From: an uncultured bacterium
GTDB taxonomy: Bacteria > Pseudomonadota > Gammaproteobacteria > Burkholderiales > Burkholderiaceae_C
NCBI GenBank assembly: GCA_903830565.1
Contig: CAIKUF010000207.1
Span: 1 to 33,509, forward strand
DNA length: 33,509 bases
Direction: 5' to 3'
Shown here: piece after piece, positions 279-33,485 of the stretch
Numbering within the stretch: the stretch's first letter is position 1
How the letters are laid out: each line of letters opens with the position of its first letter
Notes under the pieces: model-generated
Seen by the model: only the letters and a program-made list of their open reading frames with translations
Database searches by the model: none
Told to the model about the DNA's origin: nothing
Translations under genes and position numbers: made by a program

Positions 279-1238
279 ATGACGCTGACCTGGCCAGTCG
301 TCGCCGCGGTGCTGTTCGGAGCGCTGCTTCATGCGTCTTGGAACGCGCTCATCAAGTCGGGCACGGACAAGTCGCTCGACACCGCGTTGATCCATGTGAT
401 GGGCTGCGTGGTTGCCATCCCGCTGCTGCTGACGGTCGGCCTGCCGCCGCCGGCCGCGTGGCCTTGGCTGGCGGCTTCGCTCGTCATCCACATCGGCTAC
501 TACATTGCGCTGGCAGGCGCCTACAAGCACGGTGACCTCGGCTTCACCTACCCCATCATGCGCGGCCTCGGGCCGCTGCTCGTCGCGCTGATCCTCGGCG
601 TCAGCGGCGGCGCGATCATCGACGAGAAGCTCTCGCTCGCGACCATCCTCGGCGTCGCCGGCATCAGCAGCGGCGTGCTGCTCGTCGGCCTGTCGCATGT
701 CTCTCAAGGAAACGCCGGGCCGCCCCAAGTTTCCTTGCTCCCCCTTGGGGGGACGGTCGCCGCAAAGCGGCGGCCTTGGGGGCACGCAGACAGCGATCAT
801 CGGCGGGCGTTGCAGTACGCGCTGCTGAACGCGGCCATCATCGCGGTCTACACCATCGTCGACGGCATCGGCGTGCGCGCGAGCGGCAACGCATTGCAGT
901 ACGTGGCTCTCCTCTTCCTGCTCGACGGCCTGCCCTACTTCCTGCTCGTGATGCACCGCCGCGGCAAGGCCGAGCGGCCTGCCGCGTGGGCGCACATGCG
1001 CAAGCGCTGGCCGCTGGCGCTGCTCGGCACCTTGGCTTCGCTGGGCTCTTACGGAATCGCGCTGTGGGCGATGACGCGCGCGCCGGTGGCGGCCGTGGCG
1101 GCGCTGCGCGAGACTTCGGTGCTGTTCGCCGCGCTGCTCGGCACGTGGCTGCTGAAGGAGCCCTTCGGCGCCCGGCGCGCTGCCGGTACGCTTTGCATCG
1201 CCAGCGGCGTGATGGCGGTGCGGCTGGCGCAGGCTTGA
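279..1238 (+). CDS. EamA/DMT-family permease carrying an in-frame repeat insertion
   Basis: A 319-residue integral inner-membrane protein with the drug/metabolite transporter plan: two EamA repeats of about five hydrophobic helices each (about 5-140 and 178-318). The pattern ALLHASWNALIKSG near residue 15 and the helix VAAVAALRETSVLFAALLG near the end are typical of the family. The substrate cannot be told from sequence. Residues about 142-170, in the loop between the two halves, are encoded by a palindromic repeat (see 704-786). They read as a polar, Pro/Gly/Arg-rich insert unlike the rest of the protein, but the frame is kept. The gene ends 16 bases before the flavoprotein gene and is probably co-transcribed with it, so transport of a methylated amine is possible but is only inference. 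The Shine-Dalgarno signal is weak. Confidence 0.85.
   Translation: MTLTWPVVAAVLFGALLHASWNALIKSGTDKSLDTALIHVMGCVVAIPLLLTVGLPPPAAWPWLAASLVIHIGYYIALAGAYKHGDLGFTYPIMRGLGPLLVALILGVSGGAIIDEKLSLATILGVAGISSGVLLVGLSHVSQGNAGPPQVSLLPLGGTVAAKRRPWGHADSDHRRALQYALLNAAIIAVYTIVDGIGVRASGNALQYVALLFLLDGLPYFLLVMHRRGKAERPAAWAHMRKRWPLALLGTLASLGSYGIALWAMTRAPVAAVAALRETSVLFAALLGTWLLKEPFGARRAAGTLCIASGVMAVRLAQA
704..786 (+). repeat. REP-like palindromic repeat inside the permease gene
   Basis: A cluster of inverted repeats inside coding sequence. CAAGGAAAC (705-713) pairs with GTTTCCTTG (729-737). CCCCC-TT-GGGGGG lies at 740-752. CGCCGC-AAA-GCGGCG (758-772) is a 6-bp stem with an AAA loop. CCCCAAG (723-729) faces CTTGGGGG (775-782). 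C/G-rich hairpins with CCCCTTGGGG cores are, from memory, common between genes in Burkholderiales. The length is about 28 codons and no stop or frameshift results. Confidence 0.7.
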
Positions 1239-19980: not shown

Positions 19981-20071
19981 TGGCGGAAGAGGTGGGATTC
20001 GAACCCACGTTAGCCTGAAAGGCTAAACCAGATTTCGAGTCTGGCGCATTCGACCACTCTGCCACCCTTCC
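19981..20071 (-). tRNA. tRNA-Ser(CGA)
   Basis: 91 nucleotides including an encoded CCA. The acceptor stem GGAAGGG pairs with CUCUUCC (one G-U), the anticodon stem is CCAGA/UCUGG with loop CUCGAAA giving anticodon CGA (codon UCG), the variable arm UAGCC-UUUC-GGCUA is long as in serine tRNAs, and the T arm is GUGGG-UUCGAAU-CCCAC. The gene follows serS on the same strand by 50 bases. Its 3' end faces the methyltransferase island. Confidence 0.97.
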
Positions 20072-25000: not shown

Positions 25001-25444
25001 TCAAAGAACCCCGATCACATGGACGTCGAACCTGAGCGGCGCGCCGGCCAGCGGGTGGTTGAAGTCGAACAGCAACCAGTCGTCGCCGAGCTCGCGCACC
25101 ACGCCTGCGAAGCCGGCCTTGCCGTCGGGGGTCGGGAACTCGACGGCGTCGCCGACCGCATAGCTGCGCTCGGGGTCACCGAGTTCCTCGAGCAGCGATC
25201 GCTTGATGCGTTGCAGCATCTGCGGGTTGCGCTGGCCGAAGGCCTCGCCGGGCGCGAGATCGAAGCTTGCGCGCGCGCCCTCAGCCAACCCGATCAGCCG
25301 CGCCTCCATCGCCGGAGCCAATTCGCCCGTGCCCAGCGACAGCGTGGCCGGCTTGTCGCCGAAGGTGCTGATGAGGTCGGTGCCGTCGGCGCGCGCCAGG
25401 CGGTAGTGCAGGGTCAGGAACGACCCGGGCTGGATGGCATTCAA
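25001..25444 (-). CDS. fkpB: FKBP-type peptidyl-prolyl cis-trans isomerase (SlpA/FkpB-like)
   Basis: 147 residues from a TTG at 25444 preceded by GAGAAG; homologues begin at this point ([15 protein letters not shown]). An ATG at 25522 would add 26 unrelated residues and overlap the divergent radC start, so it is less likely. The split FKBP domain reads [37 protein letters not shown] and [16 protein letters not shown], the insert-in-flap region gives chaperone activity in this family, and it ends with [21 protein letters not shown]. It is cytoplasmic and in an operon with ispH. Confidence 0.9.
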
Positions 25445-33282: not shown

Positions 33283-33485
33283 TTTCGGCCCGTTGCAGTC
33301 GTTCCTGGTACACGGTTTCGCGCGGGCCATGGACGATGGGTGCCCGCCGCTGCTCGTGTCCCCCGGGCCGGGCTTCGCCCGTCCCTCCTCCTTTACCTCG
33401 CTGCGCAGAACGCCCCGCCGTCCCGATCCGATGCAGCGCTCGCTGTTGGTGGGCGCACGCCACCCGGGTGCTAGGCCGTGGACGA
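33283..33485 (-). repeat. Dispersed structured intergenic repeat, copy 2
   Basis: This is the inverted copy of the element at 2-238. Its most conserved part (33387-33485) differs from copy 1 at about three positions. The hairpin (33365-33373 / 33377-33385) is a 9-bp stem with one mismatch and a 3-base loop, at the same place as in copy 1 but of different sequence. The distal part (33283 to about 33330) is diverged. It points towards rdgB and ends about 69 bases before its ATG. The last bases of the window (GCAGCGAGGGAA) recall the GCAGCGAGGGAAA of copy 1 on the plus strand and could be the edge of another copy. Confidence 0.75.

Follow-up and report, generated by a model that had tools for sequence, protein, structure and literature searches.

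How can the gene of a membrane transporter carry, within its reading frame, a block of palindromic repeats and still encode a full-length protein? This question is raised by an EamA-type transporter gene in the window, i.e., the whole stretch of 33,509 nucleotides analysed here, which comes from contig C207 of a draft genome (G000, hereafter the own genome; 4.13 Mb, 339 contigs, contamination 3.67%). The answer that we consider very probable is that the block is a dispersed multi-hairpin element moved in trans, that purifying selection has removed the insertions that harm genes and left the in-frame copies, and that the copy in the EamA gene is a tolerated loop.

The host gene and its insert

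The host gene (279..1238, plus strand) encodes an EamA-type ten-helix transporter of 319 amino acids, as indicated by the open reading frame, PF00892, TIGR03340 and an AlphaFold model, and it is interrupted in frame. The closest NCBIfam model is TIGR03340, a phosphonate-utilisation-associated membrane protein, and the match spans residues 8-313 at 219 bits, below the cut-off of 288. The first-pass annotation had placed a repeat block in the coding sequence of this transporter, without a frame shift and within the loop that connects the two EamA halves, and both points are supported: the inserted element lies at 705..785 (plus strand), is repeated in the genome and encodes residues 143-169. The addition is in frame as described, with its size revised from 83 bp and about 28 codons to 81 bp and 27 codons. 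These ends were set by hand, by comparing the nine flanking codons with nine codons of the congener G003; at an identity to congeners of only about 80% they are approximate, and the same limit applies to any target duplication.

The proposed alignment with homologues gave the expected gap, since the 27 extra residues are missing in all 16 aligned homologues (an alignment that leaves out loci L043 and L050). Three congeners have the EamA gene without interruption, with proteins 79-82% identical. The G003 homologue has 292 residues versus 319 in the window, and its DNA is continuous across the site, with the part matching residues 1-144 stopping at 25199 and that matching residues 172-317 starting at 25200. 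The AlphaFold model has a mean pLDDT of 89.4, with ten long helices, one of them broken, and block means mostly above 90; in the element-encoded stretch, pLDDT falls below 50 at residues 145-164 and 166-169. As the rest of the model is confident, the insert is predicted to form a flexible loop between helices 5 and 6. The best solved-structure matches of the model are transporters such as 5i20 and LicB, which we take to be of the drug/metabolite class. In addition, dN/dS between the own gene and that of G003 is 0.27, compared with 0.30-0.38 for insert-free pairs within the genus, a value that mostly reflects the time before the insertion.

Anatomy of the element

As DNA, 705-785 folds into three hairpins with arms 705-713/729-737, 739-744/748-753 and 758-763/767-772, so that the inverted repeats noted earlier are present, standing side by side instead of nested. 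The folding alone is only moderately unusual, with z at -2.46 and 4 of 200 shuffles equally stable. Hairpin 1 (705..737, plus strand) holds its arms around a conserved loop, the 17-base core at 713-729 (CGCCGGGCCGCCCCAAG), and these arms vary and co-vary across copies: 28 distinct arms from 35 own copies score 7.64, versus a mean of 3.72 (sd 0.28, maximum 4.57) in 500 re-pairings of arms among copies. Hairpin 2 (739..753, plus strand) consists of CCCCC/GGGGG and changes little, the pattern CCCCC-NN-GGGGG being nearly constant across copies. Hairpin 3 (758..772, plus strand) is variable in sequence, and compensation is clear in the larger set of 47 named-genome segments (7.43 of 10 paired versus 5.98, maximum 6.49) and marginal in 17 own segments (6.88 versus 6.28, maximum 6.88). 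The right end (773..785, plus strand) is of the TTGGGGGCAC type, for which the consensus of named copies is GGGGG-C-R-C-T-C-A.

On the left flank, the 82 named copies mostly carry CTC-W-C ahead of AAGG. CTC occurs near both ends in most of these copies, and one CTC is shared at the listed tandem junctions. A CTC target duplication was considered and is not claimed, as the end CTCs disagree copy by copy; as well, the empty sites are too diverged for a target duplication to be called.

Arrays in which two to four units follow one another at a spacing of 78-87 bp were seen in several genomes (L121, L122, L123, L124 and L195). Counted from non-overlapping loci, 27 distinct spacings comprise ten of 81 bp, four of 84, three of 78 and three of 87, the remaining seven being 82 (two), 85 (two), 86 (two) and 79 bp (one); 20 of the 27 are thus divisible by three, spacings from one array not being independent. 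Among 31 own copies, the three plus frames are open in 22, 26 and 26 and the three minus frames in 29, 29 and 30, while random 76-bp windows of the contig are open in 68-72% (about 21-22 of 31), so that one plus frame (22 of 31) does no better than random windows. Rfam gave no match over the element (window 550-950, E up to 5) or over element copies in 15 loci (E up to 1).

Repetition and spread

The suggested search for further copies returned at least 42 blast matches in the own genome, the query itself included (40 of 79 candidates scored), and eleven copies, that of the window among them, are 86-100% identical across 77-83 bp. With homologues lacking the loop and the DNA block repeated, neither of the two conditions named in the first-pass annotation as refuting it applies. 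The own genome contains 44 occurrences of the core CGCCGGGCCGCCCCAAG and none of a reversed control pattern. The core is present in 28 of 60 searched genomes, namely 27 of 36 of the same bacterial family (own included in both counts) and one other of the order. Blast with the whole element (E up to 1e-8) found matches in only 12 of the 60, and outside the genus the preserved part is mostly the core and arms. Moreover, 94 stretches of the GTDB collection contain an exact match to a 31-mer that represents the arm type of the window copy. Its carriers among the 80 listed include Thiomonas, Thauera, Rhodocyclales, Ideonella, Roseateles, Pelomonas, Rubrivivax, Trinickia, Polaromonas, Hydrogenophaga and others, and two of these 80 records are labelled Gammaproteobacteria, one being Halothiobacillus. 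Plasmid and phage records gave no match at E 1e-6 and 1e-4. The element is one copy of a repeated family of Betaproteobacteria, chiefly Burkholderiales, which has no gene of its own.

Ten own copies outside the counts given here form a sub-family with the same core and a different 3' half (core-GGCGAATACCGGAGTGCGCAGCACGAAGG; L097, L099, L102, L104, L109, L110, L111, L112, L118 and L032). Seven of the ten are flanked by same-strand coding calls whose frames are shifted. Copies of the sub-family tend to bridge the gap between the TGA of a gene and the ATG or GTG of the following one, and about 7 nt ahead of this start they supply a GAAGG motif resembling a Shine-Dalgarno sequence; the sub-family is possibly a mobile translational coupler. 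A second, unrelated repeat at 30-245 and 33332-33457 has 30 genome matches, itself included; it sits at both ends of the contig as well as at many other contig ends, and probably broke the assembly. The window also contains a tRNA gene (19984-20071, minus strand; RF00005).

In-frame copies inside genes

Codon usage was scored on both flanks of each core-bearing own copy, giving 53 rows, from which the ten copies of the other sub-family and one chance core match were subtracted to leave 42 classified own copies. The chance match was L107, on the minus strand of an acyl-CoA ligase gene, which was dropped because the hairpins are absent. The 42 include quite diverged copies, and more stringent filtering leaves 35 for the arm test and 31 for the stop test; L008, L016 and L019 have altered cores and stand outside the 42. 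Most classified copies are located at or between genes, and a minority lies in frame inside conserved genes. In the own genome this minority amounts to 11 of 42, nine recognised by a shared open frame on both flanks and two further ones by ORF reading, in HrpA (at a contig end) and NuoL (near the gene start). The other hosts are EamA, XdhA, an S9 peptidase, 5-formyltetrahydrofolate (FTHF) cyclo-ligase, V-type ATPase subunit B, a HerA-like helicase, an ABC ATPase, DnaE2 and ParE. Family models of the hosts are split or stretched at the element; five hosts are sense and six antisense to it, and all three frames of each direction are used. Eight own copies between same-strand calls in different frames were inspected by eye for broken genes, a check that covered the own genome, and look like gene ends or junctions. 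A further copy (L010) lies in the first part of the gene for a Pal-like lipoprotein that has an OmpA domain, after MKTMRM and before the LAGC motif; the start or the signal peptide of that protein may have been altered by it.

In other genomes, in-frame copies inside genes were found at 4 of 80 named-genome loci, in a cytochrome d1/NirF-like protein (Hydrogenophaga), an NRPS adenylation domain, ManC and NAD-glutamate dehydrogenase, and in 5 of 40 family-genome clusters, in a YdeP/FdhF-like oxidoreductase, UvrD, NosD, RecJ and MoeA. These nine hosts were judged from family models and domains: in eight of the nine, the match to the family model is broken or extended where the element lies, and the copy in NAD-glutamate dehydrogenase lies in the linker between two domains. 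The rest of the named set has one side coding (33), neither (26), a position near the stretch end (10), opposite strands (3), same strand in another frame (2) or the same frame with an internal stop (2); the corresponding numbers in the family set are 14, 10, 4, 1, 5 and 1. Gene calls are present on both sides of 33 of the 76 named loci without an in-frame copy, which lie between same-strand (22), convergent (9) or divergent (2) genes. The first-pass expectation that such repeats are rarely tolerated in genes is therefore not supported for this family, which is in frame in ten other own genes and nine genes of other genomes, and it also conflicts with the intragenic REPs and Rickettsia palindromic elements (RPEs) described in two publications (PMC3733652, PMC10969869). 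Nor is there support for the EamA loop as the one site that could take the element, given the nineteen other genes carrying the same family in frame.

Empty sites in relatives

The comparison with relatives covers the own-genome hosts, of which nine of eleven have an empty site: EamA, HerA, ParE, the ABC ATPase, DnaE2, FTHF cyclo-ligase, XdhA, the S9 peptidase and HrpA. As read from the alignments, the net length differences are 78 bp for HerA and for FTHF cyclo-ligase, 81 for the ABC ATPase, 84 for the S9 peptidase, 75 for ParE and for HrpA (versus G015), 66 or 84 for XdhA depending on the relative, and 153 for DnaE2, which has a composite copy; all of them are multiples of three. L288, L276, L263 and L253 were left out of the empty-site alignment as too wide.

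The HrpA site is empty in G009 and G015, and a loop of similar length is present in the congeners G003 and G004. Compared with the own element, the loop DNA of G003 scores 21, above all 500 shuffles (7.8, sd 3.7), while the comparison is weak for G004, whose score is reached by 49 of 500 shuffles. Apart from the element, the own HrpA (L292) contains another repeat-like stretch that is in frame (SFPRRREST...DSRLRGND).

V-type ATPase subunit B was absent from the matches listed for six relative genomes. For this protein and XdhA, the extra residues are visible against solved relatives. The solved relatives of FTHF cyclo-ligase match weakly, and the best one of NuoL aligns only downstream of the element, the piece matched upstream being non-significant. 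The insert-bearing NuoL (L015, contig C274) shows 46-49% identity to the best NuoL in five of six relatives, which include two congeners, the value for the remaining relative being 36%; given so low an identity to congeners, contig C274 could be a second complex I operon or a contaminant.

Origin, selection and alternative explanations

We infer the mobility of the element from its dispersal and the empty sites, no transposase or excision product having been found. An enzyme acting in trans would move the element, and this mover probably recognises its folded single strand, as hairpin pairing is kept while the stem sequence is free. The occurrence of copies in all six frames suggests that insertion is not aimed at a single frame or peptide. 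Purifying selection would then purge insertions that shift the frame or strike a structured part, so that the gene copies surviving would be those with a net length divisible by three and placed in loops or linkers. The element seems well suited to genes, 81 bp being the commonest tandem spacing and stop codons being few, and with such a net unit a fair share of gene insertions should be readable through. The EamA copy is predicted to be translated as a 27-residue loop between helices 5 and 6, and transport should stay intact.

Other explanations would place the cause in expression, in the state of the genes, in the data or in a function of the insert. The element might remain untranslated, through ribosome bypass or RNA removal, leaving a protein without the 27 residues. 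The hairpins at the site would agree with this, and the counting method favours in-frame, stop-free copies, so that a bypassed frame-breaking copy could be missed; however, the gene-internal copies counted are in frame and stop-free, which neither bypass nor splicing requires, and we consider this explanation very unlikely. Slightly less improbable, and still quite unlikely, is that the interrupted genes are pseudogenes in decay, as the second repeat-like stretch in the own HrpA might indicate. ParE is normally essential, and its presence among the hosts speaks against decay, as do the otherwise long open frames (the 319 amino acids of EamA, together with ParE, DnaE2, HerA, RecJ and MoeA) and the EamA dN/dS of 0.27.

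An artefact of assembly or binning, for which the 339 contigs and the contamination level of the draft could be cited, has hardly any probability in our judgement: in-frame copies also occur in other assemblies, including the single-contig genome G008 (locus L066) and G006, G017 and G018, listed as 100% complete, and the element lies inside its contig, 700 bp from the end. Finally, the peptide or the mRNA hairpins might serve the host gene in regulation, localisation or interaction and be kept by selection for that role. The HrpA loops at the same place in G003 and G004 fit such exaptation, that of G003 exceeding every shuffle as if an old insertion had been kept through speciation; however, the G004 test is weak, and the use of six frames and unrelated genes disfavours a common function, which makes exaptation unlikely, if the least improbable of these alternatives. 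A tolerated copy of a dispersed, trans-moved element thus remains our reading of the EamA insert.

A broader proposal goes further, and we advance it tentatively, with the odds somewhat against it: palindromes spread across Betaproteobacteria, with a constant loop, compensating stems and a new mover, would be adding segments of 25-28 residues to core proteins outside Rickettsia, some of which (HrpA) would have been inherited by several species with the palindromes lost and the frame kept. If true, this would be an ongoing source of new protein segments. The recurrence of in-frame copies in core genes, together with the empty sites of relatives where checked, amounts to a natural experiment, open to counting, on which parts of proteins accept insertions; the copies with co-varying stems are a set in which to seek the mobilising enzyme.

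Comparison with known elements

In the collection of papers searched, the core strings GGGCCGCCCCAAG and CTTGGGGCGGCCC gave no match, nor did a search linking RPEs with betaproteobacteria, and no title on this family was among the matches listed. Short transposase-less MITEs such as ERIC and RU (PMC2759123, PMC10969869) resemble the element in being small, lacking a transposase gene and occasionally lying inside genes; unlike in those, inspection of the element by eye reveals neither clear terminal inverted repeats nor a clear target duplication.

The likeness to REPs in the first-pass annotation holds for behaviour and not for structure. According to Di Nocera and others 2013 (PMC3733652), GTAG/CGTC REPs are dispersed hairpins mostly outside genes, sometimes grouped; intragenic ones, which encode 20-30 residues, are known in several other bacteria, and their hosts include DnaE2 and UvrD-type helicases, as do those found here. 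The element differs in lacking a GTAG or CGTC end tag, as window positions 703-786 contain no GTAG/CTAC and a single, internal GACG (CGTC on the other strand). Furthermore, REPs are described there as single hairpins of 20-40 bp, whereas the element has 81 bp and three hairpins, with the loop conserved and the stem sequence not. Association with a RAYT, a Y1 tyrosine transposase linked to REPs of the GTAG class, was looked for and not seen: no core was found in the 4.0 and 2.5 kb stretches around the two Y1 (RAYT-like) loci of the own genome, and PF01797 had no match in G003 and G004, both element-bearing, although these drafts may miss genes. Since a Y1 gene is present in 25 of 36 genomes searched, the own one included, a RAYT may nevertheless act on the element in trans.

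In-frame palindromes are known in Rickettsia as RPEs (Ogata and others 2000, 2002, as covered in PMC10969869 and PMC3733652). Like these, the element is a short palindrome in frame in many unrelated protein genes, where it adds tens of residues; sequence membership is not assigned, and by description it is set apart by its high G+C betaproteobacterial hosts, its length of about 81 bp, its three hairpins and its variable, co-varying stem. It behaves like RPEs and intragenic REPs and, having no end tag and three hairpins, misses the definition of a REP. Protein-coding palindromes are best known from Rickettsia, for which an obligate intracellular life and weak selection are a ready explanation; here the same phenomenon is met in larger betaproteobacterial genomes and in core genes such as ParE, RecJ, UvrD, DnaE2 and MoeA.
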